From: a virus
Reading direction: 5' to 3' (one strand)
IMG/VR virus record: IMGVR_UViG_3300021964_000661
Location: 1 to 21,360 of that record
DNA: 21,360 bases
Shown: in pieces, positions 3,142 through 17,507 of the stretch
Numbering within the stretch: the stretch's first letter is position 1
Layout of the letters: each line of letters starts with the position of its first letter
Notes under the pieces: generated by a model
Database searches by the model: none
Told to the model about the DNA's origin: nothing
The model's input: only the letters and a program-made list of their open reading frames with translations
Made by a program: the position numbers and the translations under genes

Positions 3142-3326
3142 TTCTTCTGCACCTTCAGCGGCTCGACCTTGAGGGTCGGAGCGGCAGGCTCCGGGGTGGC
3201 GTCGGCCACCGCGGCACCCTCGGCCAGAAGCCAGTTGGCCTCCTTCTCCGAGGGCTCATCGAAGCTGGCGCCCGGCAGAACCGGGCCGCCCTTGCGTTCG
3301 ATCCGATGCAGGGCGATCAGCTTCAT
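3138..3326 (-). CDS. Small capsid-adjacent connector-like protein (62 aa)
   Basis: It starts at ATG 3326, overlapping the capsid gene stop as ATGA, so it is translationally coupled to it. The product begins MKLIALHRIERKGGPVLPGA and has an N-terminal strand-turn-strand with a conserved-looking 'F.....KEA.WL...GAAV' segment, followed by a Pro/Lys-rich tail. Small proteins of this form, placed right after major capsid genes, are common in siphoviruses and are usually annotated as hypothetical or as head-tail connector accessories. The position corresponds to lambda FI, but there is no clear sequence link. Confidence 0.6.
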   Translation of the reverse strand: MKLIALHRIERKGGPVLPGASFDEPSEKEANWLLAEGAAVADATPEPAAPTLKVEPLKVQKK

Positions 3327-4363
3327 GCCACCACCCGTGCTTTCAGCGTGGCGTTGGGCTCGCGCGGAACCATCAGCGGGGCTGACTGGTGCATGACGAA
3401 CTCGCCGGCCGGATCTTCCTGGATGAAGTTCTTGCCGAAGATGGGCACCGAGACGTAGCCAGCACGCGGGTCCATGATGGCTCCGAAGCAGCGCACGCCT
3501 TGAACGCCAGCCGGGTTCGCCATCAGCACGTCGCGCGGGTCCATGATGGCCGTGCTGGTGCCGTCAGCGTCCTGATAGAAGTCGCTGTAGACGTAGTACT
3601 GGCGGCTGCCGTCCGTCCCCTTGTACTGCAGCGAGGTGCCGTCGCCGGGCAGCGTGTTGAGCATCAAGCGCTCGGTGCCGCGGCTGTTGCGATCCAGGGC
3701 GTCCTTGACGTTCTGGTCGGCCGAGAAGGCGGCCCAGGCGGAGGTGCCCATAATCACGATGGTGGCCACATAGCCCGAGGCCGTGTGCATCGTGGTCGCC
3801 CAGGTCTCAATGCTGGTCAGCGGGTTGACCCCGCTGTCGCCCCAGCGGCTGCCGGAACCCAGGGTGATGGTGTGACCGGAGGCACGGTTGAAGCTGACGG
3901 TCTGCGACGGGTAGTTGTCGCCGGCCACCACCACGGAGCCATTCAGAACGGCGTGGGCTGCCATCACTTCCCAGCGGCGCTGGATCGATTCCTGGTGCAG
4001 GCGGATCAGGTCGGCACGAGCCGCCATAATGCGCTGGTCGGGGGTCAGATTGCCACCATAGGGCTCACCTGCACGGCGCTCGAACGCCTTGCTGGAGTCC
4101 ACCATGTCCTTCGGCTTGATGTAGGCCGGAGAGAAGCGGTTCTGGGTCCGGCCCTGCTCTTTCATCGGCTGACCCTGCACGTTCGGAGCGACGAACGGGG
4201 CGAGGCGCTTGTAGCGCGCAGCCACCACATCGAAGTCGATGTACTGGGTGTCGAAGGTGCGGGCGGTCGGGAAGAACATCGACAGCCACATCGGCGGAGC
4301 GTCGGGCTGCAGCTTCTGCAGCAGCTCCATCATCGTCGCGGTGTCGTAGGTTGCGAGTGCCAT
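3323..4363 (-). CDS. Major capsid protein, lambda gpE family (346 aa)
   Basis: The start ATG 4363 follows AAGGAGACC. The product begins MALATYDTATMMELLQKLQP, then PPMWLSMFFP, and continues with the mid-protein features of the gpE family of HK97-fold capsid proteins (for example YIKPKDMVDS and the G(G/N)LTPDQRI segment). It polymerises into the icosahedral shell. It follows the decoration protein by 12 bases, the lambda order C-D-E. Length is close to lambda gpE (about 341). Capsid assembly would be assisted by the nested scaffold and matured by the S49 protease upstream. Confidence 0.93.
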   Translation of the reverse strand: MALATYDTATMMELLQKLQPDAPPMWLSMFFPTARTFDTQYIDFDVVAARYKRLAPFVAPNVQGQPMKEQGRTQNRFSPAYIKPKDMVDSSKAFERRAGEPYGGNLTPDQRIMAARADLIRLHQESIQRRWEVMAAHAVLNGSVVVAGDNYPSQTVSFNRASGHTITLGSGSRWGDSGVNPLTSIETWATTMHTASGYVATIVIMGTSAWAAFSADQNVKDALDRNSRGTERLMLNTLPGDGTSLQYKGTDGSRQYYVYSDFYQDADGTSTAIMDPRDVLMANPAGVQGVRCFGAIMDPRAGYVSVPIFGKNFIQEDPAGEFVMHQSAPLMVPREPNATLKARVVA

Positions 4364-5113: not shown

Positions 5114-5989
5114 GGGGGCCTCCGAGAGGACGAAAGGAGCGCTGGCCGCTTGCGAGAGGCCAGCAACGAAAGCGGCGTAGGCGTCGCGGGGACTCTGCAC
5201 CACATCTGCGAACCCGACTGCCACGGCGTCCTGCGCGCTGTAGCACCGGGCCTCGGTCGCAAGGACCGCTTCAACTGTCATGCCGCGACCCGCAGCAACC
5301 ACCTCGGCGAACTGCTGCCGGCGCTGGTCCACACGGGTCTGCATGTCCTTGCGGACATCTTCAGGGAGCGGCTCGAACGGGTTGCCGTCAACCTTGTGGT
5401 CGCCGGAGAAGATCGGGGTGACCTTCATGCCGACCATCTCCAAGTACTTGGACACGTCAACGTGGGTGGTGTAGACGCCAACGCTGCCGACCCCGCCGCT
5501 GGGGGTGACCACAATCCTGTCGGCGGACACTGCCAGCGCGAAGCTGGCGCTGTAGGAGTTGGCGTCCACGATGGCCACGGAAGGCTTCTTGCCCGCTGCC
5601 AGCTCGGCCGAAAGCTCGAAGCAACCCTGCGCGTCGCCACCTGGGGAGTTGTGGTCGTAGACGATGCCCCGAACCTCCGGATCGGCTTCAGCCGCCTGGA
5701 ACATGGCGAGCACGGCCTGGTAGCCGGTGGCTCCGCTGTAGGCGTAGTTGTAGCGGTTGAGCAGCACTCCGCGCACGGGAATCACAGCCACGCCGTTTGC
5801 CCGGTCGAACGCAAACGCCTTGCCGCCCGATTCCGCCTCGACACCGTACACCGCCGCCAAGTCCAGAGAGTAATCCTGGTCATCGCCCATGGCGGCCAGA
5901 GACGCCAATGCCGCCGCCACGCTTTGTGGAGCGATCGCCCACGGCTCTTGCGACATGCGGCTGATCGCCGCCAGAACGTCACGGTTCAT
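4781..5989 (-). CDS. S49-family head maturation protease, lambda gpC-like (402 aa)
   Basis: I choose ATG 5989, nine bases after a GGGA; ATG 5998 is also possible, and both overlap the end of the portal gene. The peptidase domain spans roughly residues 60-270. It shows VIPVRGVLLNRYNY, the oxyanion-type SPGG (115-118), the probable nucleophile Ser147 in NSYSASFALAVSADRI, and a probable general base Lys199 in GDHKVDGNPF. S49 enzymes use a Ser-Lys dyad. The domain is followed by an Ala/Pro-rich helical region (about 293-402) that likely acts as scaffold and can also be made separately from an internal start. The enzyme processes the prohead interior; position next to the portal matches lambda gene C. 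Confidence 0.92.
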   Translation of the reverse strand: MNRDVLAAISRMSQEPWAIAPQSVAAALASLAAMGDDQDYSLDLAAVYGVEAESGGKAFAFDRANGVAVIPVRGVLLNRYNYAYSGATGYQAVLAMFQAAEADPEVRGIVYDHNSPGGDAQGCFELSAELAAGKKPSVAIVDANSYSASFALAVSADRIVVTPSGGVGSVGVYTTHVDVSKYLEMVGMKVTPIFSGDHKVDGNPFEPLPEDVRKDMQTRVDQRRQQFAEVVAAGRGMTVEAVLATEARCYSAQDAVAVGFADVVQSPRDAYAAFVAGLSQAASAPFVLSEAPMPQTDDSRAAERARIKAIRGHEAAASHPELADHLALETDLTAEQAAGILAAAAKDKPAAPAPAPQANAFLDAMRGSGSGVDPNTPEKPAELSVAQQALAAFTLATGRAVK

Positions 5990-7577
5990 TTGGTGCATTC
6001 CCGGATTGTATTGCTGGCGCGGCTTTGGCGTCCAAATCGGGGAAGACGAGCCCGGCAGCGGCCCGCTCCTGCTGTTCCCGCAGGGCCTGTTCGAACACCT
6101 CGCGGTAGTCGCCGCCCAGGCGCGCGATCTCATCCTCGTGGGTCGAGAGGCCAGCCTTGATGCGGGCAACCGCCGCCTGAGTTTCCTTCAACTCATCGAT
6201 CTGACCGCGGCTTGCGCCAATCCAGGAGCACCGGGACATAGCCTCGCGGTTCAGGCCGCGGTAGAAGTCCCACTTGTCGAACCCGGGCGGCAGCGGCACC
6301 TCTCCGCGCTGGATTTGCTCTTCCAGCCACAGGGTGTACATCTCGGTGGCCTGGCGGTCGGCGAACTTCTTCTTGCGACCCTGCATCGCGCGCCAGGTCT
6401 GCAGCATGGTTGCGCGGGCAGAGCTGTAGTTGGTGTTCGTGTAGTCGCGGGTGAATTCCTCGTAGCTGAGGTTCAGCCGGGCGGCAATGTGGCGCAGCAG
6501 ACCCTGCTCGTAGGCCGCCATCCCCGTGCGGTCCTGCGGCTGGTAAAACTTGAGCTTGGTGTTGGGGGCGAAGACGGGAATCTTCACGCCGTCCAGCTTC
6601 ACCGCACCGGCCTCGCCGTAGTACTCGGCCAGCATGCTCATAAATTGCCGCACGCCGTTGCTGCCCTGACTCTGGCCCATCTGCTCGTAGATGGTCTCAG
6701 GTGGCAGCTCCGATTCGATGGCGGCAGCGTAGGTTGCGCCCAGCACGGCAGCCTGCAGCTCAACCTCACGCAGGCGCTGGGTCATCCGCATCTCTTTGAG
6801 CACGGAGACTGTCGCCGACACCCCGCGGGTCTGAGCCGGCAGGATTTGGTCGAAGATGTGGATGACCCGCTTGCGGCCCCAGGGCATGCGCGCCGGAACT
6901 TCCTTCCACTCCCACGCGCGCATGTCGCCGATGCGAGCATCCGACTTGTGTGCCTGGCGGAAATGGTAGCTCAGCGGCTCACCGGAGTTGTCCATGCTCA
7001 CCCCGCCGCGCAGGTTCTGCGTGTCGGCAGCGTCGTGCGGGTTGCACAAGCGCTCGGGGGCGATCAGTTGGAAGCAGGTGTTGAAGGGCCGACCAACCCG
7101 GTCGAGCCACTCAGAGGTCATCACCACCTCACCGCTCACCACCCCCAGACCAACTCCAAGGCGGATCTGGTCGGTGAAGGTCAGCTTGCGGGCGCGATCA
7201 AAGTGACACTCGATCGACTCGGCGCTCAGGCGCCAACGACTTTCGACCACCTGCTGGAACTCGCGCGCCCACTCGGGGCTCGCGCCAAGCGCCCGCCAGT
7301 CCGGCCGCGCGTTGAGCACGTACTGGGCGCCGACGATTGAGTCCTTGATGGTGTCAACCGCGCCGCCAACGAAGCCGTCACTGCCGGCCATGTCATGCGC
7401 TTTGGCGTCCCACTGCTCCTTGTTCGGCAGGATCGCCACATCTGCGGACTGGCTCGACGCATTCCAGAAGGCCGTGCTGCGCGCCGTGCGATCGGCGCCG
7501 TCGAGGCCGCCCACCAGGGCCTGCTCTGGGGCGGGGGTGTACGCCTTCACGGCAGCGGCAACGGGGGTCAGATCCAT
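5979..7577 (-). CDS. Portal protein, lambda gpB family (532 aa)
   Basis: It starts at ATG 7577, overlapping the end of the gpW gene by 10 bases, and begins MDLTPVAAAVKAYTPAPEQA. The length matches lambda gpB (533). Typical lambda-family features are present: the LVGAVDTIKD-like segment here as VGGAVDTIKDSIVG, the QLIAPERLCNP strand, HIFDQILPAQTRG, the YEEFTRDYTNTNYSSARATM segment and a charged helical C terminus. The portal forms the dodecameric DNA entry ring and docks the terminase. It is preceded by gpW and followed by the protease, the W-B-C order of lambda. Confidence 0.95.
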   Translation of the reverse strand: MDLTPVAAAVKAYTPAPEQALVGGLDGADRTARSTAFWNASSQSADVAILPNKEQWDAKAHDMAGSDGFVGGAVDTIKDSIVGAQYVLNARPDWRALGASPEWAREFQQVVESRWRLSAESIECHFDRARKLTFTDQIRLGVGLGVVSGEVVMTSEWLDRVGRPFNTCFQLIAPERLCNPHDAADTQNLRGGVSMDNSGEPLSYHFRQAHKSDARIGDMRAWEWKEVPARMPWGRKRVIHIFDQILPAQTRGVSATVSVLKEMRMTQRLREVELQAAVLGATYAAAIESELPPETIYEQMGQSQGSNGVRQFMSMLAEYYGEAGAVKLDGVKIPVFAPNTKLKFYQPQDRTGMAAYEQGLLRHIAARLNLSYEEFTRDYTNTNYSSARATMLQTWRAMQGRKKKFADRQATEMYTLWLEEQIQRGEVPLPPGFDKWDFYRGLNREAMSRCSWIGASRGQIDELKETQAAVARIKAGLSTHEDEIARLGGDYREVFEQALREQQERAAAGLVFPDLDAKAAPAIQSGNAPNEP

Positions 7578-7792
7578 ACCGTGATCGGCCCTCGCGTGCG
7601 GGTCGTGCCGGCAGTCTCGGCGGTCAGCGTCGCCTCAAGCTCCCGGATGTAGGCTTGCAGCCGCGGGGCGTCCGCCCGAGCGAACTCGACGCGGGACGAA
7701 TCCATGTTCACCACGACGGTCGGGCTCTTGCCCGTCACAAGGCGGTGGTACGCGGTGCGAGCCTCATCGAGGAGCTGGGCGGTTGTAGCCAT
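7568..7792 (-). CDS. Head-tail joining protein, gpW-like (74 aa)
   Basis: ATG 7792 begins MATTAQLLDEARTAYHRLVT; a longer frame to 7924 is rejected because the extra residues have no family look and would overlap the upstream gene. The protein has an N-terminal helix, a short beta hairpin (TVVVNMDSSRVEFA) and a second helix (RLQAYIRELEATL), the compact gpW fold, and is close to the 68 residues of lambda gpW. gpW closes the portal vertex and prepares it for tail attachment. It lies immediately before the portal as in lambda. Confidence 0.9.
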   Translation of the reverse strand: MATTAQLLDEARTAYHRLVTGKSPTVVVNMDSSRVEFARADAPRLQAYIRELEATLTAETAGTTRTRGPITVWI

Positions 7793-7818
7793 GTGGCAAT
7801 GGTACACCAGAGGCTGAC

Positions 7819-8001
7819 TCAGTAGTTCGGCAGTGCGCGCGCAGACAGGCTCTTTCGCAGACCTTCCAGCACCGCCGACCAACCGCGGCAGCTCAGGAAT
7901 GGGTTCACGCTCCGGCCTGGCCATGCGCGCGGCATCCCGGCCGCGCGCATGGCGTCGAGCTGCCGCTGCTGCGCCTCAGAGGCGCGCGTTCCGTCAGTCA
8001 T
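7819..8001 (-). CDS. Hypothetical small phage protein (60 aa)
   Basis: ATG 8001 overlaps the stop of the preceding gene (TGA 7994-7996), so it appears translationally coupled. The product begins MTDGTRASEAQQRQLDAMRA and contains AAGMPRAW followed by a basic, Leu-rich C-terminal half. I recognise no family. The frame extends upstream to 8094, but those residues overlap the better-supported 52-residue gene. It lies between that gene and gpW. Confidence 0.55.
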   Translation of the reverse strand: MTDGTRASEAQQRQLDAMRAAGMPRAWPGRSVNPFLSCRGWSAVLEGLRKSLSARALPNY

Positions 8002-8152
8002 GCCCGTTCTCCCAGAAATGGCGCAGTGCGTTGAGTGACTCCTGCCGCGCCTCCTCCCAGATCCAAACGCCACTCCAAGCCCTGAAAACGTCAATCATGA
8101 GGAGGATGGGCCAACTCACGATGACCACGGAAGCTCGGTAGATGGTGGTCAT
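7994..8152 (-). CDS. Small single-span membrane protein (52 aa)
   Basis: ATG 8152 follows an excellent AAAGGAGGTGAGTG site. The product starts MTTIYRASVVIVSWPILLMI and continues through a Trp-rich amphipathic stretch to ...FWENGHD. Residues about 8-24 form one hydrophobic segment, so a single-span membrane protein is likely. It may be the first full-length head-operon gene after the cassette array. No family is recognised. The strong ribosome site is the best reason to treat it as real despite its size. Confidence 0.65.
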   Translation of the reverse strand: MTTIYRASVVIVSWPILLMIDVFRAWSGVWIWEEARQESLNALRHFWENGHD

Positions 8153-8211
8153 CACTCACCTCCTTTCGGGGCCGATGCGAGCATGGCGCGGCGGGTGAGG
8201 CGGTAGGGCAT
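8152..8211 (-). CDS. Very short leader-like ORF (19 aa), possibly a remnant
   Basis: An ATG at 8211 gives MPYRLTRRAMLASAPKGGE, whose TGA overlaps the next start as TGATG. It could be a coupled leader peptide or a small phage gene. The ATG lies just beyond a hairpin and the left border of the cassette array. No ribosome site is evident, and the frame could be chance. Confidence 0.3.
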   Translation of the reverse strand: MPYRLTRRAMLASAPKGGE

Positions 8212-8219
8212 GGTGCGTG

Positions 8220-8237
8220 CGGACCTTGCACGGTCCG
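8220..8237. repeat. Hairpin at the left border of the array
   Basis: CGGACC, a six-base loop, then GGTCCG form a perfect 6-bp stem about 12 bases from the lone core site GTTAGGT. It could be part of the target site of cassette insertion, a degenerate attC arm or an old intergenic structure. It has no T-run on either strand, so it is not a good intrinsic terminator. Confidence 0.5.
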
Positions 8238-8248
8238 TATATGTCTCA

Positions 8249-8255
8249 GTTAGGT
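8249..8255 (+). other. Lone core site at the left end of the array (insertion point)
   Basis: GTTAGGT fits the GTTRRRY core consensus but has no R'' partner to its left. The next bases extend the identity: positions 8247-8258 are the exact reverse complement of positions 8795-8806, which contain the R'' box of the attC at the other end of the same cassette. This is what a cassette inserted at a non-attC secondary site would leave. Confidence 0.7.
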
Positions 8256-8855
8256 TGCTACATGCCGAAACTTGTGCTTGGCGAAGCGACCAACCATCTC
8301 GCATCCCATCGCAAGCATTTCGTCGCGGGTTCGTGTCTTTGGCCCCGCCTTGCGAGCGACCATCCTGCCATCCTTGAAGAACGTGGCCTCTTTTGCGGTC
8401 ATGCCGCAATACTCCCAGTTCGTCGCGCGGTAGATCGCGCCGGTGTGCCCCTGCATCTCATCCGCGTAGGTAACGAGGCATGGCCACCGTTTTCTGTCAA
8501 TCGCCGCCATGCTCTTGCCCAGCAGGAAAGACGCGCCATTTTTCGGAACCTCCGGTTCAATCGCGAGCCGCGTCAACGCCAGCACGCCTTGCCAGTCGGC
8601 TGGCCACGTCGCATTCGCTGCCGTCTTGGTGGGTGGTATCCACCACGCAACACCGAGGCACTCGTCATGGCCTTTGCGGAACAGCCCGTGCCGGTAGGTA
8701 GCCGTGTTTGACCCCCCGCCGGAGTAATGCAGCCGTCGCACCAGGTCTTGCGCTACCCGAAGCTCTACCGTCCTCACTTCCCAGTCCGCGCGACGCAACC
8801 TAACTGACGGTTCGAGCGGACCTGCAATGGCGGGCGAGTTTTGTGCGTTTGTCAT
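8250..8855 (-). CDS. Mom-like DNA adenine modification protein (up to 201 aa)
   Basis: The frame begins at ATG 8855 inside the loop of an attC site, without a clear ribosome site; residues 1-20 are encoded by that attC, so the true start may be further in (for example TTG at residue 20 or GTG at residue 27). The core shows LVRRLHYSGGGSNTATYRHG (39-58), LGVAWWIPPT (67-76), LTRLAIEPEVPKNGASFLLG (94-113) and YADEMQGHTGAIYRATNWEY (130-149). This is the pattern of the Mu Mom family, GNAT-fold proteins that convert adenine to N6-carbamoylmethyladenine and protect phage DNA from restriction. The stop TAA falls in the lone core site, so this is the cargo of cassette 1. The call rests on recalled motifs. 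Confidence 0.8.
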   Translation of the reverse strand: MTNAQNSPAIAGPLEPSVRLRRADWEVRTVELRVAQDLVRRLHYSGGGSNTATYRHGLFRKGHDECLGVAWWIPPTKTAANATWPADWQGVLALTRLAIEPEVPKNGASFLLGKSMAAIDRKRWPCLVTYADEMQGHTGAIYRATNWEYCGMTAKEATFFKDGRMVARKAGPKTRTRDEMLAMGCEMVGRFAKHKFRHVAT

Positions 8856-8899
8856 GGTGTGGTGCGCGCCATTACAGGCCGCTCAACCTAGCGTTAGGC
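8798..8899 (+). other. attC site 1 (102 bp)
   Basis: R'' is ACCTAAC (8798-8804) and the core is GTTAGGC (8893-8899). The arms pair over about 24 bases. The left arm carries an extra C after GGTT and an extra A six bases later, the two extrahelical bases typical of integron attC sites. The 5' end of the Mom-like gene lies in the loop, and the 3' end of the next gene runs through the right arm. Confidence 0.88.
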
Positions 8900-9183
8900 C
8901 CCAATGCCTTGCGCAGCGCGGCCATGTGCTCGTCCATCAGGCCGTTGGGGTCCCACACGGCGCTGCGCACCACCGTCCAGGCGGTAATGCAGCGCTCAGC
9001 CTGCCGGCGCAAGTCGCCGGCTCGCGGCTGGGCCAGCGGTATCACGTCGCCGCCTTGTGGGTCGGTCTCCAGCTCAAACACGCGCTCGCGCAGCCGCGCA
9101 ATCTCGGCCGCCTGCCACTGCGTTAGCTTCATCAGCCGCGCCATGTCATCGGGCAGCGGTATCAGCATATTCGGTTCGGCCAT
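8872..9183 (-). CDS. Cassette 2 hypothetical protein (103 aa)
   Basis: ATG 9183 follows AAGGAAAG. The product starts MAEPNMLIPLPDDMARLMKL and has a helical, heptad-like stretch (about residues 12-41, ending RLRERVFELE) that may form a coiled coil, then a Trp-containing helical second half. The last nine residues (PNARLSGL and the preceding Gly) are encoded by the right arm of attC site 1, and the stop lies inside it. No family is recognised. Such short, unknown proteins are typical cassette cargo. Confidence 0.75.
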   Translation of the reverse strand: MAEPNMLIPLPDDMARLMKLTQWQAAEIARLRERVFELETDPQGGDVIPLAQPRAGDLRRQAERCITAWTVVRSAVWDPNGLMDEHMAALRKALGPNARLSGL

Positions 9184-9185
9184 GT

Positions 9186-9238
9186 GTCAAGCTTTCCTTG
9201 TCAGTTCGCTTCGGCGCCGTTCAACCTGGAGGTTATGC
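9186..9238 (+). other. attC site 2, degenerate
   Basis: The core GTTATGC (9232-9238) is preceded by an arm GTTCAACC that pairs partly with GTTCGC...GGCG to its left. A canonical R'' box is missing; that segment now holds the ribosome site of the gene ending at site 1. It is called mainly because it sits between two cassette genes and has a good core. Confidence 0.55.
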
Positions 9239-9454
9239 GTTGTCGTATTCACGTATGCAGAAATAGTCGTAGTCACTTAACCAGTAGTTCTTTCCAACCA
9301 GTTTCACTACCTGCCGTCTTTCGTGCGCAGATGTCTCGCACTCGATTCGTCTTTCACGCATCAGCTTCCAAGCGCGAACAAGGTTCGTACTGGCGGCAAA
9401 TGCTGATCCGCCTTCGTATCTGCAACCACTTTCACAAACATAAATCTTGGTCAT
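9233..9454 (-). CDS. Cassette 3 hypothetical protein (73 aa)
   Basis: ATG 9454 follows GTGGAGACGCG. The product starts MTKIYVCESGCRYEGGSAFA, with a Cys-x3-Cys pair, then a basic helix (KLMRERRIE) and a Tyr/Asp-rich C terminus (WLSDYDYFCIREYDNA). The final Asn-Ala and the stop come from the core of attC site 2. The start segment TGGAGACG-NN-ATGACCAAG is nearly the same as in cassette 6, which suggests shared ancestry of the upstream region. No function is assigned. Confidence 0.75.
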   Translation of the reverse strand: MTKIYVCESGCRYEGGSAFAASTNLVRAWKLMRERRIECETSAHERRQVVKLVGKNYWLSDYDYFCIREYDNA

Positions 9455-9465
9455 CGCGTCTCCAC

Positions 9466-9522
9466 GTATAACTCTGCCGTCAACGGGACGGCTTTCAGCC
9501 GCCCGTCACGGCGGCGTTAGGC
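9466..9522 (+). other. attC site 3 (57 bp)
   Basis: R'' is GTATAAC (9466-9472) and the core is GTTAGGC (9516-9522). The arms pair around a TTTCA loop as GCCGT-C-AACGGG-A-CGGC against GCCG-CCCGTCACGGC, leaving an extra C and, six bases on, an extra A in the left arm. Size and structure match short class 1-type attC sites such as those of aadA genes. Confidence 0.9.
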
Positions 9523-9524
9523 CT

Positions 9525-9743
9525 CTACAGCATGTCCAGCGCATCAGCCCCGGTAATCTTCCTGTAGAGCATCGCCACCAGCACTTGGCCGTCCTCGCGC
9601 TCAATGACAAGCTTCTGAGCAAAGTCGTGCGCCGCCTCCATGCAGCCAGGGCCTTCGTACTCAAACACCTGCGCGCCAGTTTTCGTCTTCAACACCACGA
9701 TGTGCGGCATGTCCTTCAGGTCGTCAGTTGATTCCAAAGCCAT
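9525..9743 (-). CDS. Cassette 4 hypothetical protein (72 aa)
   Basis: ATG 9743 follows AAGGGGAAA and starts MALESTDDLKDMPHIVVLKT. A strand pair (HIVVLKTKTGAQVFEYEG), a helix (CMEAAHDFAQKLV) and another strand (GQVLVAMLYRKITG) suggest a small alpha/beta fold. The stop is three bases from the core of attC site 3, and the start is 24 bases from the R'' box of site 4, so the gene fills its cassette. No family is recognised. Confidence 0.78.
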   Translation of the reverse strand: MALESTDDLKDMPHIVVLKTKTGAQVFEYEGPGCMEAAHDFAQKLVIEREDGQVLVAMLYRKITGADALDML

Positions 9744-9766
9744 TCAATTTCCCCTTCGGCCACCAG

Positions 9767-9864
9767 GCCTAACAATCGCTCAACCGGACCCAGCCAGGCG
9801 GTCCGTCCTGTTCATCTGCCACCGCCCCGGCGCCTGGCCGGTCCGGTTAGCTCAAGCGTTATGT
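9767..9864 (+). other. attC site 4 (98 bp)
   Basis: R'' is GCCTAAC (9767-9773), followed by AATCGCTCAACCGGACC; the right arm is GGTCCGGTTAGCTCAAGC and the core GTTATGT (9858-9864). This is almost the textbook class 1 layout (TAACAA... and ...TCAAGCGTTA). The left arm has one extra C. R'' is the exact complement of the core at 9516 that opens the same cassette, not of its own right-hand core. Confidence 0.92.
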
Positions 9865-10535
9865 CTCACAACAGCCCATCGCTTCTTCTGGCCTCGGCTG
9901 CGGTTGCGGAACTCCCGCCGCCGCTTGGCTTCGATTAGTCGCGGGTGCTTACAGCCTCGCTCTGGCGCGCACCAGAATCGCCAGCCGTCGTAGTAGCACT
10001 GCACAACAACATCGCGGGCCGGATGCTTCCTGTTGCAACATTCACACCGGAGCATCTGCCCAGGTGTGTACCGCTTCCTGTAGGGCGGCTCCATGTTGCT
10101 ATCGGTGAAATCTGTAGCCGGTTGCATCGCGGCGCTGTAGATATGCAAGTTGGGCGCCGCAAAACTGTCGTTGTCCAGCCACCGCTGCAAATGCAGGATC
10201 AGTGCGGCCACCTGCTCACGATCCAGGTGCATGCGGGTGGTCAGGCTCACGCCGGGCGGAATCGGGTACGGCACCCAGCCCGTGCGCTCGGCCGTGTCCA
10301 CGCCCAGGCCGCGTGCTTCGCTCGCAAGCACCTTGGGCGCCGCGTCATCCGGCCCCAGCCACACCGCCGAAGTGCCGGGCTTCTCGTGTTCGGCCAGGCT
10401 CGAAGCCTGCAAGCTGCACGGCGTTCCGTAGCGGTCTTGGAACTCCAGCAGTTCAAAGCCGCGCGCAGTCCGCGCAACGGCGCCCAACCCTTCGCTCAAC
10501 TCGGACCCATCGGGGCCGGCACCATCTGTAGCCAT
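9852..10535 (-). CDS. Cassette 5 protein with RGFELL-type phage domain and Cys-rich C terminus (227 aa)
   Basis: ATG 10535 follows CAGGAG. Residues 22-124 (from RTARGFELLEFQDRYG to RMHLDREQVAALILHLQRWL) resemble a domain I have seen annotated as hypothetical in many proteobacterial phages and mobile elements. Residues 164-195 contain Cys164, 166, 167, 180, 189 and 195 with CNRKHPAR and WRFWC, a probable zinc-binding domain, followed by a very basic tail (KRRREFRNRSRGQKKRW) that could bind nucleic acid. The end HNA-stop is encoded by the right arm of attC site 4. The two halves may be an old fusion. Confidence 0.78.
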   Translation of the reverse strand: MATDGAGPDGSELSEGLGAVARTARGFELLEFQDRYGTPCSLQASSLAEHEKPGTSAVWLGPDDAAPKVLASEARGLGVDTAERTGWVPYPIPPGVSLTTRMHLDREQVAALILHLQRWLDNDSFAAPNLHIYSAAMQPATDFTDSNMEPPYRKRYTPGQMLRCECCNRKHPARDVVVQCYYDGWRFWCAPERGCKHPRLIEAKRRREFRNRSRGQKKRWAVVRHNA

Positions 10536-10539
10536 TGCA

Positions 10540-10585
10540 ATCTCCTGTAGCGGCCCCGCTGGGCCGGTTAGCTCAAACGTTAGGC
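10540..10585 (+). other. attC site 5, degenerate
   Basis: The right half is typical: GGGCCGGTTAGCTCAAAC and core GTTAGGC (10579-10585), nearly the same as the right arm of site 4. The stem CGGCCC (10551-10556) pairs with GGGCCG (10561-10566). The left half lacks R'' and the extrahelical bases; its place is taken by the ribosome site and start of the cassette 5 gene. Confidence 0.65.
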
Positions 10586-10914
10586 ATCACAACAGGCTCG
10601 CCCATGAACGTCGGCGGCTCTTGCATCGGTGCTGCGGCGCGACACGCTGCGCGGTACTCGTCCAGCAGCGCGTGCGCTTCGTTCCATGTCCCGGTCGGGT
10701 CCAGCAGTGCGCATTCCAGCAGCACAGCCAGCCGGTGCGCGTATGCGCTGCCAACCTCGTGCAGCGCCAGAGCTTCGCGCATCGTCTCAAGCTCGGCGCG
10801 GCAGGCTTGCAGCGGTGTAGGCTCTGGCGGCTTGCGCTTGCCGTCAGCGTCAAACCTTTGCGGTGCGCACGTCGCGCAGTCCTGCCAGTGTTCGCATTTG
10901 CATTGCTTGGTCAT
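10573..10914 (-). CDS. Cassette 6 hypothetical protein (113 aa)
   Basis: ATG 10914 follows CTGGAGACGAC. The product begins MTKQCKCEHWQDCATCAPQR, with Cys5, Cys7, His9, Cys13 and Cys16 forming a likely small metal-binding knuckle, then a long helix (about residues 35-68) that includes ACRAELETMREALALHE, and ends with GEPVVMPNV. The last residues Asn-Val and the stop are encoded by the core and arm of attC site 5. The gene start overlaps the read-through end of the methyltransferase gene by 65 bases. Confidence 0.75.
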   Translation of the reverse strand: MTKQCKCEHWQDCATCAPQRFDADGKRKPPEPTPLQACRAELETMREALALHEVGSAYAHRLAVLLECALLDPTGTWNEAHALLDEYRAACRAAAPMQEPPTFMGEPVVMPNV

Positions 10915-11701
10915 GTCGTCTCCAGTGATGCCTAGCGGACGACCTTCGGCCGCCGCTTAACTCCACGTTATACGTCTCGGCAATCGCCGCAAATATCGGG
11001 TATGCCTGCAAAGGCACAACCGCGTTTCCAAGCGCTTTCAGGCGCTCACGTCTGTCCAACCGGGCGGAAAGCCCATCAACCACTCGACCCATTCCGGGTT
11101 CAACACGCCATCCGCCGCCGTCCCGCCAAATCCCCGCGCCGCCTCTGAGAGAGTCCACCCCGCCTTTGCTGCGCTCGCTGCCGGTCGGTTCCCCGTCTTC
11201 CCTCTTGGGTCTTTCCAGTCCGTCGCCCTTGGCGTGGGCCAGTACGAAAACCCGCTCTCGCGTATGCGGGGCGCCTGCGGCGCAAGCCGGAACAACAACC
11301 GGCCTGACGGCGTAGCCTGCTGCTTCCAGGTCATTGCAAACGGCATCGAGGCCGATGGCAATGTGTCCTGTAACGTTTTCACCAACCACCCAAGCGGGTC
11401 GCAGCGCCTGCACAACCCCGAGCATTGCGGGCCACAGGTGGCGTTCGTCGGCGTGTCCGGCGCGCTTCCCGGCTTGGCTAAATGGCTGGCATGGGTAGCC
11501 TCCATGCACAAGTTCAATTGCTGGCAGATCGTCGGTTGCAGTTGTTCGTACATCATCAAAAATCCTCACGTTCGGCCACCGTGCCGCCAGCACCGACTTG
11601 CAAAACTTGTCGCGCTCGCAAAAGGCCACGGTCTTAAATCCTGCCCATTCGGCGGCAATGTCCAGCCCACCAATCCCGGAAAACAAGCTTAGTGCGTTCA
11701 T
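10850..11701 (-). CDS. C5 cytosine DNA methyltransferase (283 aa)
   Basis: I choose ATG 11701 (MNALSLFSGIGGLDIAAEWA); an upstream TTG at 11719 lies inside the attC and is less likely. Visible motifs: I, LFSGIGGLD (6-14); IV, GGYPCQPFSQ with catalytic Cys71; VI, GENV (107-110); VIII, TRERVFVLA (147-155); X, LGNAVVPLQAYPI (224-236). Together they define an m5C methyltransferase. The target-recognition region between VIII and X is short (about 65 residues), as in small phage enzymes. The frame reads through attC site 6, adding about 40 residues, and overlaps the next gene. It has no restriction partner here, so a solitary, DNA-protective role is likely. Confidence 0.92.
   Translation of the reverse strand: MNALSLFSGIGGLDIAAEWAGFKTVAFCERDKFCKSVLAARWPNVRIFDDVRTTATDDLPAIELVHGGYPCQPFSQAGKRAGHADERHLWPAMLGVVQALRPAWVVGENVTGHIAIGLDAVCNDLEAAGYAVRPVVVPACAAGAPHTRERVFVLAHAKGDGLERPKREDGEPTGSERSKGGVDSLRGGAGIWRDGGGWRVEPGMGRVVDGLSARLDRRERLKALGNAVVPLQAYPIFAAIAETYNVELSGGRRSSARHHWRRHDQAMQMRTLAGLRDVRTAKV
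10930..10973 (+). other. attC site 6 (44 bp, shortened)
   Basis: R'' is GCCTAGC (10930-10936) and the core is GTTATAC (10967-10973), with right arm CCGCTTAACTCCAC. The stem GCGG-A-CG-A-CC / GGCCGCCGC is imperfect. Positions 10925-10936 match the reverse complement of the opening core region of the same cassette (10579-10590) in 11 of 12 bases, which identifies the R'' box despite one substitution. Confidence 0.75.
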
Positions 11702-11705
11702 CAAC

Positions 11706-11764
11706 GTATAACTCTTCAATCAACCGGACTGCCTTCCGGCAGCCGGTTATTTCGGTCGTTATCA
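11706..11764 (+). other. attC site 7, right end of the array (59 bp)
   Basis: R'' is GTATAAC (11706-11712) and the core is GTTATCA (11758-11764). Arms AATCAACCGGACTGCC and GGCAGCCGGTTATT pair around TTCC, leaving an extra C and an extra A six bases apart in the left arm. R'' and flanking bases match the reverse complement of the core opening cassette 7 (10967) over nine bases. To the right is ordinary phage sequence leading into the terminase gene. Confidence 0.9.
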
Positions 11765-11772
11765 ATGTCGCA

Positions 11773-11801
11773 ACTCTACCTGCAAGTGACCGTGCCGTCA
11801 A
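11773..11801 (-). promoter_or_regulatory. Candidate sigma70 promoter pointing into the array
   Basis: On the minus strand TTGACG (11801-11796), a 17-base spacer and TAGAGT (11778-11773) form a good -35/-10 pair. The -35 box overlaps the terminase stop codon. Transcription would begin near 11766, pass through attC site 7 and reach the methyltransferase start at 11701. Confidence 0.55.
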
Positions 11802-13789
11802 CAGAGTTTTCGTGCGAAGTCTCCCCAACCTTGCGACACCTGCTCGACCGGTTTGACCTTCCCCTCGATCGCAGTGTTGCGCTCCCACTCGGCCGCCCAG
11901 CTCGGAGGGTCGTCCCACGAGATGCGATCCCACTTTTTGTGGTGCATAGCGCCCAGAGCCATGTAGAGCAGATCCCACGGCTCATTGCGAGCTGAGCGGG
12001 GGTTTTCCCATCCCTTTGCGGTGCGAACCTCGGCGCAGAGTTGCTTGTAGAACTCCAAGTCAAGCCACTCGGGAAACTCCACGGCGCCGCGCTGCAGCAT
12101 GCCGTCGAGCTGGTCCTTGAGCACGTTGGAGTTGAGCAACAGCACGGGGATCTCGCCGCGAGCTTTGGCGTGGCGATCCTTGCGCTCGCCGTCAGGGAAC
12201 GTGAGCAGAGAGCGCGGCGCGTCGGCGCGAGGGTTGCCCTTGGTGAGGTGAAACCAGGTGCGAACCTGACGCCAGTAGTCGTAGGCCATGCTGGTGACAC
12301 CCTCCCGGCCGGCCGAGTCACAGAACACGTCGCGCGGTGTCATGGTCCCGAAGCCCGGCACCTCGTAGGTCCGCTGCTTGACCTCCAGGTCGATCAGGTC
12401 CCAATCCTCCAGGTAGGCATGCGGCTCGACCGGCATGCGGTCGCCGTCGCCGTCCAGCCGCAGGCTCTTGGTGATGTCGAAGCGGTCCACCACGGCGAGC
12501 CCTTCCGGTCGCATGCCGATCACCAGCACGGCAAAGCGGGTCTTCTGCACGTCCACCGTGGCGAACAACGAGCGCACCCCGTCAGGCACCGCGCCTCGCC
12601 GCGCCGGCACCGCCTGCGCCCGGTACGCCTCGGCCGAACGCTCCTTGCCGTTGGTGCGGTAGATGTAGGGCAGCCCGAGGTCGGTGTTGGTCACGCTCTT
12701 CAGCGCATCCTGGCTGTTGGTGCGCCGGTACTCCGCTTCGGCCTGGAGCATCTTCTGCACCAGCGTGCCCCAGCTCGCAAAGGCCGCCGCGACCCCCTTC
12801 AGCCAGAAGCTGGCGATGTTGCTGCGGATGGGCTCACCGTCGATCTCGCCGCGCAGAGTGAACCGCTCGCCGTCACGCAGCCACCGGCCGTTGCGGTTCA
12901 AGTCGAACTTGCGGGCCGCCTTGTGCTGGTGATGGCAGTGCGGGCACTCCATGGTGGCCATCTCGCCGGCCTGCACCGGGTTGGCGTCAGGCGGGAAGGT
13001 CAGCAGCGCGTACTCGCCTTCAAACCAGTAGCCGCAGGATTCACACTGCCAGTACCACCGCCTGCGGTCGCCTCGGTTGTAGAGCGCCAGGATGCCGTCA
13101 GCGGGCGGCGCCTCGTGTGCCGTACTGGCGAGCCACTGGGGGTCGCGCTGCGGAAACCCAGGGCTCGACTCACACACGGTTTTGCCGAGCCGGCCGAAGG
13201 TGGTCGTGCGCTTCGTGGCCAGGTCGAACGGATTCCCTTCGCCGTCCACGTCCTGCGGCATGCGGTCGTAGTCAGTCAGGAACACCCAAGGAACCGGGCG
13301 GCCCGACAGCTCGTTGATGGTTGGCCACGACATCGTGACCATCATCCCTGAGCGGAAAACCTTGGTGAAGATGGTGTCACTGCTCGTGCCTCCCAGCAGC
13401 AGCTCGGTCAGCTTTGGGTTCTTGCGCAGCAGGCGGTCGATCCGGCGCCGAGAAAAGTCGCTGGCCGAGTTCATGCTGGTCTGGTAGATCAGCATGTCCA
13501 TCGGGTTGCAGTGCGCCCCGTAGACGATCGGCCCGAGGATCAGGCTCTCGGTTTTCGCGCACTGAGCCGGGCCGACGAAGATGCTCGCCGTGTAGTTGCG
13601 ATCAGTCAGCACGTTCATCGGCTCGACCATGTAGGGTACCTTCTCGTTCAACCACGGGCCGACGTAGGCGCCAGGGTTGTCGAGCCGCAGGTGCTGCGCC
13701 AGGGCCTCGCTCGGCTGGAGGCGCTGGGGTGGCCGCAAGCCCTCCGCCAGGCTGGTGATAACCTCACCCAGGTTGCGATAGTCGGTCAT
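11798..13789 (-). CDS. Terminase large subunit, lambda gpA family (663 aa)
   Basis: ATG 13789 (MTDYRNLGEVITSLAEGLRP) is chosen because GAGGGA lies nine bases before it; ATG 13798 is an alternative. The ATPase domain has an adapted Walker A GPAQCAKTES (73-82) and Walker B VFLTDYDRM (169-177). A zinc-ribbon pair CESC (249-252) and CPHC (282-285) follows, as in GpA proteins. The C-terminal nuclease has ATVDVQKTRFAVLV (Asp413) and VFCDSAGREGVTS (Asp491). The protein packages DNA into proheads by cutting and ATP-driven translocation. It overlaps the small subunit gene by 26 bases. Its downstream neighbour in the ancestral phage has been displaced by the cassette array. Confidence 0.95.
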   Translation of the reverse strand: MTDYRNLGEVITSLAEGLRPPQRLQPSEALAQHLRLDNPGAYVGPWLNEKVPYMVEPMNVLTDRNYTASIFVGPAQCAKTESLILGPIVYGAHCNPMDMLIYQTSMNSASDFSRRRIDRLLRKNPKLTELLLGGTSSDTIFTKVFRSGMMVTMSWPTINELSGRPVPWVFLTDYDRMPQDVDGEGNPFDLATKRTTTFGRLGKTVCESSPGFPQRDPQWLASTAHEAPPADGILALYNRGDRRRWYWQCESCGYWFEGEYALLTFPPDANPVQAGEMATMECPHCHHQHKAARKFDLNRNGRWLRDGERFTLRGEIDGEPIRSNIASFWLKGVAAAFASWGTLVQKMLQAEAEYRRTNSQDALKSVTNTDLGLPYIYRTNGKERSAEAYRAQAVPARRGAVPDGVRSLFATVDVQKTRFAVLVIGMRPEGLAVVDRFDITKSLRLDGDGDRMPVEPHAYLEDWDLIDLEVKQRTYEVPGFGTMTPRDVFCDSAGREGVTSMAYDYWRQVRTWFHLTKGNPRADAPRSLLTFPDGERKDRHAKARGEIPVLLLNSNVLKDQLDGMLQRGAVEFPEWLDLEFYKQLCAEVRTAKGWENPRSARNEPWDLLYMALGAMHHKKWDRISWDDPPSWAAEWERNTAIEGKVKPVEQVSQGWGDFARKLC

Positions 13790-14336
13790 CCCGGTCATTC
13801 CCCTCGTAGCCTGCGAAGTGCTCGATCGCCGCCCGGTGCAGGCTGTCCAGCAGCCCGTCAACCAGCCCGTGCAGCACCTTGCGCTGCGTGCCCGACATCT
13901 CGTCCTGCTGGTCCAGCGCGTTCTCGAAAAGCGTGATTTGCTGGCGCACCAGCCGCATCATCTCCGAGTAGACCGCCTCGACTCGCTCAGTGCGCCACAG
14001 GTTTTTGGCCGCCTCCTCGAACTCCAGGCGCTGGCGCTGGCCAGCCCAGAAGTCCTTCTGCAAGCGCACCGGCATGTCCTCCGGCTTCATGTTGCGGATG
14101 GCCGCGACGATGGCGTCCTCGTCCTGCTCGACCAGCCGCTGCACCACCTCCTGCAGGTCGTAGATCCAGTATGTGGTGGCGCCCGGCCCCTTCTCGGAAC
14201 GCCGGCTGCTGCAGGTCTCCAGCACGCGGTTGAGGGTGTTCCGGTCGCGCCCGATCAACTGCTCCAGGAACCGGTCGCTCACCCCGGCCCGGCAGTACTG
14301 CAGGACCTGCGCGTCGTTCTCGATGCGTTGGCTCAC
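13764..14336 (-). CDS. Terminase small subunit, Nu1/DUF1441-like (190 aa)
   Basis: ATG 14336 overlaps the preceding stop as ATGA. The product begins MSQRIENDAQVLQYCRAGVS; residues about 10-75 look like a helix-turn-helix with wing (LEQLIGRDRNTLNRVLETC ... YWIYDLQEVVQRL), and residues 95-170 form long helices for oligomerisation. The MPVRLQKDFWAGQRQRLEFE segment is characteristic of DUF1441/Nu1-type small terminases, which recognise the packaging site and recruit the large subunit. It directly precedes the large subunit gene. Confidence 0.85.
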   Translation of the reverse strand: MSQRIENDAQVLQYCRAGVSDRFLEQLIGRDRNTLNRVLETCSSRRSEKGPGATTYWIYDLQEVVQRLVEQDEDAIVAAIRNMKPEDMPVRLQKDFWAGQRQRLEFEEAAKNLWRTERVEAVYSEMMRLVRQQITLFENALDQQDEMSGTQRKVLHGLVDGLLDSLHRAAIEHFAGYEGNDRDDRLSQPG

Positions 14337-14614: not shown

Positions 14615-16589
14615 ACCCGATATCCTCCAGCATTCCGTTTGAGCGATTGATGTACCAATCGTAATCCACATCATCCGGAAACTCGTCCGGTAGCGTCATG
14701 CAAGGTTTTGCCCCATACGACATGGAAACGATGTTCCCATTGCTTGCATAAACGATTGGGCCTGGCGACTGCGTGCCGTAATACCATCGCACGACCTTGC
14801 CGAGGTATTCTTCGCGCTGCGGGGCAAAGCAATTCGCGTAAGCCGTCGATGCGTCGGCCTGAACGCCGTTCTTCTCCCACTTTCGGCCAACCTTGACCCA
14901 ACCGTTGGCCTGAATCACGGGGATCATGTCGCGCACCTTGTCGTCCTTGCGCGGACCGTCACCCCACATCTTCACGCCACCTCCGGTCACTCGCACCACG
15001 GTAACAAACTTGCGGATGTCTCGGCACGCACGGATCGTATCTGAAATGGCGACGCCCTTTTCCAGAAACAGCGCCACAGCATCCGAGCAAATCTCACAGT
15101 CTGGGTTCTTTTTCTCGACAAGCCCGGCCTTGCTGTATTCGCCCTTACGCTTGACTCCGCCGCCCTTCTTGACGGCGATGTAGTTGTTCACATCTCTCGA
15201 ATAGATCGCCGCGTACTCCGCAGTTTCCATAACGAGGCCGGTTCGCATCTGCCAGCCGGCAATCAACATCTCACTGATCGCAATCTGGTCTTTGCGGCAC
15301 TTGACCACAATGCCGTCAGTGTTGGCTGAAATTACCGATATGCCGGCGCGCTCGTGCCACTCGATCAACATCAGCAACGACAACTGACCAGTCACCGTGG
15401 TCTGAATCAGCATAGTCGGGGCAAAAAGAATACTGTAAGGACTCCCGGTCTTGCCGAAAGTCCCGTTAATCATGATCTTCCCTCCCTCATTGCCGACTTT
15501 GGCGTCCTCATACTCATCGCCAGATTTGACGCCAGCCTTCTCCAGTTGACCCTGCTTCTTTTTCGCAGCGAGCCGCTCGTCTTTGATCGACTCGTATTCC
15601 TTCAGGAACAGCGGCCCGAGTGCTTTCGGCCATTCGCCGGAATTCAGGATCAGCGAAGGGTAATAGCTGGCAACGTCGTTGTCGCGCAGCGACCAAACAT
15701 CGTCCGCCACATGAGCGATGCGCTTTTCCTGGCTGTGCAGCCCTCCGATTCCGACCTTGTACGTTGATCCCCCAATCGGTATGCACAACCCCTCCAGCGC
15801 GTCAGGCATGGTGACCGTGCCGCTCGCGCCGAGTCGAAACTCGGCCTTGCGCACCAGATCGAGCGCGTGCTTCAACTGTGGGAGTTCAAATTGAATAAAT
15901 TCGGGCACACGATAACAAAACCGCATGTCCCAGTCTATTTCCGGCTTGTAGATGCGCCGGCCCGCAGCAATCTCACATCGGTATTTGAGAACAGCTTCGG
16001 CAACCTGTGCGTCAGACTTACTGCGAAGGTCGATTCCGTATCGCTTTCCGAGAATCTCACGCTGCTTGATCTGCGGGTGCAGTTCGTCAAAAAGCGCATC
16101 AAGCACGTCAAGGTCGTTTTCGCAATACTGCGACACCTCGATGATCTGCAAAGGCGATAGTTCTGAATCAGGACTGTATGGAAGATCGCGCATGGTGCGA
16201 CAGTGAATCCGCCCGGCGTACTGCTTCTGGGACCCCGCGCCTGGCGCTACTTCCATCACGTCGATGTGGTCGGCAGGTTCCCACCTTGGAATTTCAAGCT
16301 CCCAAGGTTTGATGCGCTCAACGATGATCTTGTCGTTGAGTTGCTTGAGCATTGCAGGATTACAACCATTCAGTGCGGCAGCAATCATCCATTGGTCATA
16401 CCCGCGCCCGTTGAAACTCACAGAGGTATGTGAGTCGAACAAGGCGCGGATCTCAGAGACTTGAGCAGGTGTGAATTGCGCAGATCCGACAAGCGCAAAG
16501 GTGCGAGTACCACCGCCCCTTGGCCTGAATTTCAGCAGCCAATAGTTGGGATAGCACTCCGTGTCGAAACTGGCAATTCGCATGCTCAC
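14598..16589 (-). CDS. Family B-like DNA polymerase with 3'-5' exonuclease domain (663 aa)
   Basis: GTG 16589 overlaps the preceding stop as GTGA; ATG 16583, two codons on, is also possible. Exonuclease motifs: Exo I FDTE (Asp9, Glu11), Exo II SFNGRGYDQW (Asn60, Asp65), Exo III YCEND (Tyr155, Asp159). A GGLHS turn (282-286) links to the polymerase domain, with motif A DVASYYPSLI (Asp305), motif B KIMINGTFGKTGS (Lys371) and motif C SANTDGIVV (Asp425). The usual first Asp of the DTDS motif is Asn423. Only about 65 residues separate motifs A and B, too few for the TPR1 insert of phi29-type protein-primed enzymes. It replicates phage DNA together with the ssDNA-binding protein and the helicase. 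Confidence 0.85.
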   Translation of the reverse strand: MSMRIASFDTECYPNYWLLKFRPRGGGTRTFALVGSAQFTPAQVSEIRALFDSHTSVSFNGRGYDQWMIAAALNGCNPAMLKQLNDKIIVERIKPWELEIPRWEPADHIDVMEVAPGAGSQKQYAGRIHCRTMRDLPYSPDSELSPLQIIEVSQYCENDLDVLDALFDELHPQIKQREILGKRYGIDLRSKSDAQVAEAVLKYRCEIAAGRRIYKPEIDWDMRFCYRVPEFIQFELPQLKHALDLVRKAEFRLGASGTVTMPDALEGLCIPIGGSTYKVGIGGLHSQEKRIAHVADDVWSLRDNDVASYYPSLILNSGEWPKALGPLFLKEYESIKDERLAAKKKQGQLEKAGVKSGDEYEDAKVGNEGGKIMINGTFGKTGSPYSILFAPTMLIQTTVTGQLSLLMLIEWHERAGISVISANTDGIVVKCRKDQIAISEMLIAGWQMRTGLVMETAEYAAIYSRDVNNYIAVKKGGGVKRKGEYSKAGLVEKKNPDCEICSDAVALFLEKGVAISDTIRACRDIRKFVTVVRVTGGGVKMWGDGPRKDDKVRDMIPVIQANGWVKVGRKWEKNGVQADASTAYANCFAPQREEYLGKVVRWYYGTQSPGPIVYASNGNIVSMSYGAKPCMTLPDEFPDDVDYDWYINRSNGMLEDIGYVPSR

Positions 16590-17473
16590 ACCAAGAAGCC
16601 GTTCTGCCGCATCTGCTCGTCGGTCCAGTTGGCACCCTTGAGCGCCTCATAGGTCAGCCCGGCGCTGGTGGCCTTCTCGGTCATGACGGGCACCGGCACC
16701 TGCAGGAAGGCCGGGTTGGGGACAGCCAGAGGCATGGCGGCGGGCACGGCTGGCATGGCGGCGGGCACGGCTGGCATGGCGGCGGGCACTGGAGGCATGG
16801 CGGCGGGCACTGGAGGCATGGCGGCGGGCACTGGAGGCATCGCAGCGACCCCTGGCGGCGCAGCCATGGCGCCGGCCGGCATGCTGGTGGCGAAGCCGAT
16901 GCTGGCGGCGTCACGCTCGCGCTCGATGCGCGGCCCGAAGCCCTGGAAGCACACGGCACCCACGTTGATGTAGACCCCCGGCTTCTGGCGGTCGCCGTTG
17001 CCTTCGGTGCTGATCTCAGCCTGCACGTAGTCGCCCAGGTTGACCTGCAAGTCAACCGGCGCCCGCTGGACGCTCGGCACGTTGACCGCGGTGTAGATGG
17101 TCGGCGCGAAGCCACCGGAGATGCGGATCACCCAGTGACCGGGGAAGCCTTCCTTCTCGCACGGCTTGCGACCGCTCTGGTTGGGCACCTGCGAGTCGCC
17201 GTCAACGATCTTCCAGGCGAAGGTGGGGAGCTGGCCGGCGTTGGGCAGGAATGCGTGCCCGGCCGCCCAAATCTTGGCGCCCCAGTCGGTCTGCGCCCAG
17301 TGCTGCTCACCGCGCTTGGGGATGGCGACACCGTAATACCACACGTCGCGCGGCTGACCCATCTTGGGACCACGCTTGTAGACGTGCGGGTTGCCGTTGC
17401 CGTCCTTCTCCTGCTTTTTGTGGACATCACCCTCGACCAGGCGGCCGGGGGGCAAAAGGAAACGATCAGCCAT
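16586..17473 (-). CDS. OB-fold ssDNA-binding-like protein with Pro/Ala/Met linker (295 aa)
   Basis: ATG 17473 follows CAAGGAGCC; the longer frame to 17638 is discarded. Residues 1-190 form a strand-rich domain with RDVWYYGVAIPK (42-53), FAWKIVDGDS (85-94), GFPGHWVIRISGGF (109-122) and QKPGVYINVGAVCFQGFG (163-180). This layout matches phage ssDNA-binding proteins of the DUF2815 type. Residues about 212-248 are a tandem (P/A)VPAAMP repeat linker, and the C terminus (ALKGANWTDEQMRQNGFLV) is a conserved-looking tip that may contact the polymerase or helicase. It lies just upstream of the polymerase gene and overlaps it by four bases. Confidence 0.8.
   Translation of the reverse strand: MADRFLLPPGRLVEGDVHKKQEKDGNGNPHVYKRGPKMGQPRDVWYYGVAIPKRGEQHWAQTDWGAKIWAAGHAFLPNAGQLPTFAWKIVDGDSQVPNQSGRKPCEKEGFPGHWVIRISGGFAPTIYTAVNVPSVQRAPVDLQVNLGDYVQAEISTEGNGDRQKPGVYINVGAVCFQGFGPRIERERDAASIGFATSMPAGAMAAPPGVAAMPPVPAAMPPVPAAMPPVPAAMPAVPAAMPAVPAAMPLAVPNPAFLQVPVPVMTEKATSAGLTYEALKGANWTDEQMRQNGFLV
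16731..16835. repeat. Five tandem 21-bp coding repeats
   Basis: The unit GGCATGGCGGCGGGCAC plus four variable bases (GGCT in the first two copies, TGGA in the next three) repeats five times in register. It encodes seven-residue VPAAMP(P/A) units in the linker of the ssDNA-binding-like protein. Near-identity between copies suggests recent slippage. Confidence 0.92.
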
Positions 17474-17507
17474 TGTTGGCTCCTTGTTGGGTGAGGGTTG
17501 AATGCTC

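Follow-up and report, generated by a model that had tools for sequence, protein, structure and literature searches.

We analyzed a 21,360-base virus record of IMG/VR (IMGVR_UViG_3300021964_000661), a single contig that is probably a fragment and is hereafter called the window. The 3.5 kb that separate its terminase large subunit gene (TerL) from the gene of the head-tail adaptor gpW are, with a probability that we put at roughly 0.87, a cluster of attC sites lacking an integron integrase (CALIN), made up of about seven integron cassettes that a chi-like phage has captured. Each cassette carries its gene in inverted orientation with respect to the attC site, and this polarity sets the array, together with those of many other phages, apart from the bacterial arrays used here as a control.

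An array of attC sites inserted in the head operon

The late genes of the window lie on the minus strand in the order TerL (13861–11798), seven short open reading frames (ORFs), gpW (7924–7568), and portal (7577–5979), and the TerL-gpW-portal order is common to the window and its relatives. In 29 relatives with a portal at least 43% identical, the end of TerL and the portal match are only 290–604 bases apart, with gpW between them where it is detectable, so that the 3.5 kb of cassettes between TerL and gpW represent an insertion.

For the detection of attC sites, we used a covariance model, R1, derived from 13 class 1 integron attC sites of known pairing and including no window sequence; 12 of them were cut from annotated plasmids, and one occurs as identical copies in many plasmids. 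Five sites of the window, within 3 kb and all on the plus strand, match R1 strongly as attC, with scores of 29–46 bits and E values of 1e-5 to 2e-10. In 1.03 Mb of TerL relatives (L001–L080), it gave a single match, located on a contig with a true integron integrase (418 bits), while 79 of the 80 loci were without a match, which excludes chance for the window sites. When folded, the bottom strands of sites 1, 3, 4, 5, and 7 form bulged hairpins (z −3.6 to −5.0), and none of 200 shuffled sequences was as stable. No Rfam family matched the window at its gathering threshold. A hand-written scanner for the R'' and R' boxes was concordant with R1 on the strong sites and too permissive elsewhere, and R1 was therefore preferred.

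The core that opens a cassette is complementary to the R'' box of the attC site of the same cassette at 7 of 7 bases in cassettes 1, 4, and 7, at 6 of 7 in cassette 3, and at 4 of 7 in cassette 5. The corresponding permutation test is weak in the window alone (12/120), whereas the 154 phage cassettes taken together show a fit of start core to R'' of 6.75 in 7 bases, compared with 5.58 for the R' of the site itself (108 better, 5 worse). Three features of an integrase-less array are found here: at least two clustered attC sites, folding with extrahelical bases in five of the seven sites, and a core complementary to R''.

A preliminary description of the window, made from the letters alone, had proposed an integron-type cassette array without integrase in a phage head-gene operon, and the R1 sites and the relatives devoid of the insert support it. 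Its ORFs and repeats are indeed at the positions that it gave, the four covariance matches that it predicted (at 8798, 9466, 9767, and 11706) were all obtained with R1, and the folding of bottom strands that it suggested yielded bulged hairpins. Two of its points hold in part: among its seven attC-like sites, the five named above stand by both R1 and folding and sites 2 and 6 are degenerate, and the complementarity of core and R'', which it read as the mark of integrase-moved cassettes, is exact or nearly so in cassettes 1, 3, 4, and 7 and becomes statistically strong only over the wider set of phage cassettes.

Cassette genes of phage arrays run against their attC sites

In bacterial integrons, the attC site is located downstream of the gene and on the same strand. 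The top strands of the five attC sites of the window are on the plus strand while the seven genes are on the minus strand, so every cassette is inverted and none has the canonical gene-attC arrangement. Each attC site lies 5' of its gene, and the start codons of the genes for the Mom-like protein and for a 227-residue protein are even found inside attC loops. The genes share the reading direction of the late operon, to which the attC top strand is antisense. This assignment agrees with homology, which falls on the minus strand for the Mom-like protein, the Dcm-type methyltransferase, and the 227-residue protein, and with a codon model, which called four of the six scored cassettes inverted, two ambiguous, and none canonical. 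The preliminary description placed the repeats and the genes correctly and overlooked that they are on opposite strands.

Further phage arrays were collected from IMG/VR with three attC patterns, which sample only some attC types, and then with R1. The polarity count comprises 46 contigs, whose phage nature was checked on 17 of them by typical genes, including terminases, portals, tail fibers and spikes, RecT/RecE, and primases, and otherwise relies on the IMG/VR call. These contigs carry 135 inverted and 2 canonical cassettes, with 27 ambiguous. For comparison, bacterial genomes were searched with an exact 19-base attC pattern that had also served for the phages; the arrays found, mostly in Burkholderiales chromosomes, have 52 canonical, 4 inverted, and 61 ambiguous cassettes. 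The difference in polarity between phages and bacteria is significant by Fisher's test both by cassette (p ~1e-39) and by contig (p = 1.6e-15). Many of the ambiguous bacterial calls are probably due to the training of the codon model on phage genes. The model-free comparison of longest ORFs gives the same picture, with 115 inverted to 48 in phages and 14 inverted to 103 in bacteria, and so does Pfam, which recognizes 16 families in the inverted-strand ORFs of phage cassettes, none in their 143 canonical-strand ORFs, and 40 in the canonical-strand ORFs of bacterial arrays. In addition, 106 of 126 scored flanking genes are on the strand of the cassette genes. Two named phages, H101 (KR534323, 76228–77987) and MW202573 (1860–3738), have attC sites by R1 and are inverted by the gene calls of their depositors. 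Inversion is thus a strong rule among phage arrays, with exceptions.

Two contigs, L231 and L135, were excluded from the phage polarity count, as they are not integrase-less phage arrays; L231 would add five canonical cassettes. The region 385–7989 of L231, an IMG/VR record from an isolate genome, has 14 attC sites with canonical cassettes wherever these could be scored (5/5), and probably represents a prophage call to which a chromosomal integron is attached. One of the two canonical calls of the count, made by the codon score for the single cassette of contig L093, conflicts with Dcm homology, which places the gene on the inverted strand. The pattern CTAACN{4,6}TCAACN{40,70}GCGTTAGGC was discarded: it retrieved six contigs (L105–L110), none of which has an attC site by R1.

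Cassettes are shared between phages from core to core

The Mom cassette of the window has a homolog on another phage contig, L230, with 74% identity at the DNA level and 83% at the protein level. The homology extends from position 8249, the G of the core GTTAGGT, to position 8820 in the L'' arm of attC site 1, and the neighboring sequences are unmatched. An even closer relationship links contigs L085 (697–1124) and L094 (1067–1494), which come from different metagenomes and share a 428-base inverted cassette that is 100% identical core to core in different surroundings; L217 and L222 share a cassette at 94% identity. The arrays of the related phages L083 (7833–10248), L095 (678–2401), and L089 (reverse complement, 7800–9461) occupy one locus: their flanks are alignable with 68–97% identity, and the homology breaks at the same point on the left and resumes at about the same point on the right. 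L083 and L095 have one cassette in common, of the 113-residue type, and L089 shares none with either beyond matches of attC size. No homologs of the window proteins were found in the bacterial array loci. To judge from these alignments, the shared boundaries and the fit of core to R'' would be footprints of integron-type recombination.

Integrase genes were observed on two contigs. L135 (G023) bears, besides a TerL relative, an integrase of the TIGR02249 family (3184–4110; 418 bits, above the curated cut-off) and attC sites at 4483, 4701, and 5341 on the plus strand and at 12507 on the minus strand; it is possibly a phage or prophage with a complete integron. In L090 (8691–9972 and 9959–11197), the gene of a tyrosine-recombinase phage integrase of 412 residues, with a weak match to the integron integrase family, begins right where an inverted array of three attC sites ends.

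Alternative interpretations of the array

The array might be a fixed relic: illegitimate recombination would have brought in part of a bacterial integron a single time, and its attC sites would no longer recombine. Such a capture has been proposed by Qi et al. (2023, PMC9892861) for some phage CALINs, and both the degeneracy of two of the seven sites and the lack of an integrase within the fragment would fit. A captured bacterial piece should, however, be canonical, yet all seven genes are inverted; moreover, the Mom cassette is common to another phage and ends at the exact crossover base, and other phages have in common a cassette identical over its whole length. We consider a relic unlikely on these grounds. 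It is far less credible still that the repeats merely resemble attC and are phage regulatory hairpins that terminate or process transcripts between late genes. They do fold and are placed between the genes of one operon, but they score up to 46 bits with a model of integron attC sites, their R'' and R' boxes being complete, almost all TerL-relative loci are without such a match, and the cassette ends coincide with the cores.

Some observations nevertheless weigh against a mobile, phage-type cassette array. An integron integrase (IntI, TIGR02249) was not found in the 21 kb fragment, which is hence not a complete integron, although IMG/VR contigs are fragments and this absence applies to them and not to whole genomes. 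Sites 2 and 6 do not fold clearly above chance, and the array may be partly fixed. Phage TJE1, which has an actinobacterial host, carries canonical cassettes. The nearest TerL is 46% identical, and the searches brought up no close relative in which the site is either occupied or empty. Taken together with the evidence above, these points leave the integrase-less cassette array as our preferred reading.

Organization of the array and its surroundings

On the gpW side, the array starts with a core site, GTTAGGT (8249–8255, plus strand), where the crossover is placed after G8249, the very base at which the homology with L230 begins. All attC sites listed below are on the plus strand and all genes on the minus strand. 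Cassette 1 (8250–8855) encodes the Mom-like DNA modification protein (PF25680, 1e-28), whose gene starts in the loop of attC site 1 (8798–8899; R1 29.2 bits on the plus strand and 7.3 on the minus strand, E 1e-5; z −4.8). Cassette 2 (8872–9183) encodes a protein of 103 residues, with a codon score of 31.9 on the minus strand versus 2.2 on the plus strand; its attC site (9184–9238) is degenerate, without an R1 match (z −0.2), and clear only in the R' core GTTATGC. Cassette 3 (9233–9454) encodes a 73-residue protein with an ambiguous codon score (2.9 on minus versus −26.8 on plus) and is followed, in plus-strand coordinates, by attC site 3 (9466–9522; R1 43.5 bits on plus, 7.5 on minus; z −4.7). 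Cassette 4 (9525–9743) encodes a 72-residue protein (31.7 on minus versus −1.8 on plus), and its attC site (9767–9864; R1 41.8 bits, z −3.6) has 82% DNA identity to an attC site of the phage contig L096.

The 227-residue protein of cassette 5 (9852–10535) belongs to phrog_3849 (9.7e-15), and its start codon lies within attC site 5 (10482–10585; R1 46.4 bits, E 2.4e-10; z −3.9), a site with 81–83% DNA identity to attC sites of L094 and L092. Cassette 6 (10573–10914) encodes a protein of 113 residues with homologs in inverted cassettes of L083 and L095 (53% and 50% identity over 56 residues); the degenerate attC site 6 (10918–10973) has only a partial R1 match at 10934–10957, which is not significant (13.5 bits; z −1.6). 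Cassette 7 (10850–11719) encodes a C5-cytosine DNA methyltransferase of the Dcm type (PF00145, 8.4e-38), has homologous inverted cassettes in L237 and L093, and contains a gene whose start is likely near 11701. The bottom strand of attC site 7 (11706–11764; R1 44.6 bits) folds with z −5.0, and the R' box of this site, GTTATCA, probably marks the array edge that stems from the phage.

Upstream of the array in the direction of transcription, TerL (11798–13861, minus strand) is of the GpA type (PF05876, 1.3e-62; PF20454, 1.9e-53) and is 46% identical to that of Burkholderia phage AH2. Downstream are gpW (7568–7924, minus strand; PF02831, 1.3e-11) and a portal protein of the lambda family (5979–7577, minus strand; PF05136, 8.8e-80). 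With a TerL identity of 45–46% to AH2 and to chi-like Salmonella phages and with their gene order, the window falls in the chi-like siphovirus group (Chi, AH2); a megablast search of named phages with the window sequence returned no match. The early region encodes two proteins with proline-alanine repeats, MPPVPAAMPPVPAAMP and PVAPAVPAAP (16586–17638 and 18614–19318).

Cargo of phage cassettes

Most of the 142 phage cassette ORFs have no recognized family. The others comprise seven N6/N4 methylases, four Mom proteins, three C5 methylases, one Lar restriction-alleviation protein, one Acb2/Tad1 hairpin, and a few others, and PADLOC was concordant on the methyltransferases. Judged by family membership, the recognizable phage cargo would mostly serve counter-restriction, and the Lar and Acb2/Tad1 cassettes hint at counter-defense beyond DNA methylation. 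The bacterial arrays contain GNAT, TIR, antitoxin, and other families, with no Mom or methylase among the families listed.

A possible mechanism and the rationale of the polarity

The integron integrases of bacterial hosts take the folded bottom strand alone as substrate and are SOS-induced, and infection by double-stranded DNA phages can trigger SOS (PMC8946536). Phage cassettes may thus be gained and lost by site-specific recombination of folded attC bottom strands. The catalyst would be the integron integrase of the infected host, which we propose because the fragment encodes none; this attC type occurs mainly in Burkholderiales chromosomes. The late promoter would express the cassettes, and the cargo would protect the phage DNA from restriction. 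In phage arrays, the attC bottom strand corresponds to the coding (non-template) strand of the operon, which transcription would render single-stranded; if replication is co-directional, it would also be on the lagging template and be likewise exposed. The inverted polarity could then be kept because the recombining strand is exposed, which would favor exchange; this is the most tentative step of the scheme. We put forward with reserve, as a possible rather than a probable model, that phages maintain their own pool of inverted cassettes, that the host integrase recombines the exposed coding strand, and that counter-defense arrays are thereby exchangeable between phages during infection.

The polarity itself may have another origin. 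It could be an accident, inherited from a cassette pool traded among phages and conferring no recombination advantage, an explanation that we regard as quite conceivable while short of probable, and that competes with the proposed rationale alone, leaving the identity of the array untouched. It is consistent with the homologous cassettes that phages have in common and that are inverted in all of them. It fits less well with the diversity of genes and attC types in phage arrays, and phages reach mostly canonical host cassettes, so that so strict a rule seems unlikely to persist without selection, which is an argument and not a test.

Significance

Research on integrons has regarded them as devices by which bacteria gather resistance genes. 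The presence of arrays in many unrelated phages, their opposite gene polarity, the sharing of cassettes with single-base boundaries, and a recognizable cargo directed mainly against restriction and other defenses suggest a parallel cassette economy of phages. The polarity rule makes it testable whether, in nature, the orientation of an array governs its rate of recombination, as is the case for the superintegron of Vibrio cholerae, and provides a signature for spotting phage-derived cassettes inside bacterial integrons. Inverted cassettes also offer a route to new counter-defense genes among many small uncharacterized ones.

Comparison with known integron systems

Arrays of class 1 integrons have the same attC anatomy as the window (R'', L'', bulged bases, L', R'). 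The window differs from them in having no IntI, attI, or resistance gene and in its opposite gene polarity. The sedentary chromosomal integrons of Burkholderiales (Rubrivivax, Aquabacterium, Roseateles, and others) have the same attC type as the phages, with the exact 19-base pattern; unlike those of phage arrays, their cassettes are canonical (52 to 4). When the superintegron of V. cholerae is inverted, the attC bottom strands are placed on the other strand and excision rises sharply (PMC11023631). There the whole array was inverted by experiment, whereas in phages each cassette is inverted with respect to its own attC site.

The closest counterparts are the published phage CALINs (TJE1, H101 (PH101), P12002L, and MW202573), which, like the window, are integrase-less attC clusters, often with DNA methyltransferases; R1 does not detect the sites of P12002L. 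The window array is longer, is located between TerL and gpW, and includes Mom. Among 10,705 phage genomes, Qi et al. (2023, PMC9892861) counted 17 CALINs, and five of the six phage attC sites that they tested were recombined by IntI1, so the rarity of such arrays in phages, as the preliminary description presented it, has to be qualified. They called the cassette orientation of H101 typical and did not mention inversion. Polarity relative to attC is not mentioned in that paper, nor did we find it in the openly accessible literature, an absence that is no proof. Phage CALINs with methyltransferases, and their recombination, were therefore already known (PMC9892861); four findings are new, namely inverted polarity as a rule, the exchange of whole cassettes between phages from core to core, an array locus that is polymorphic among related phages, and the location of an array within a head operon.

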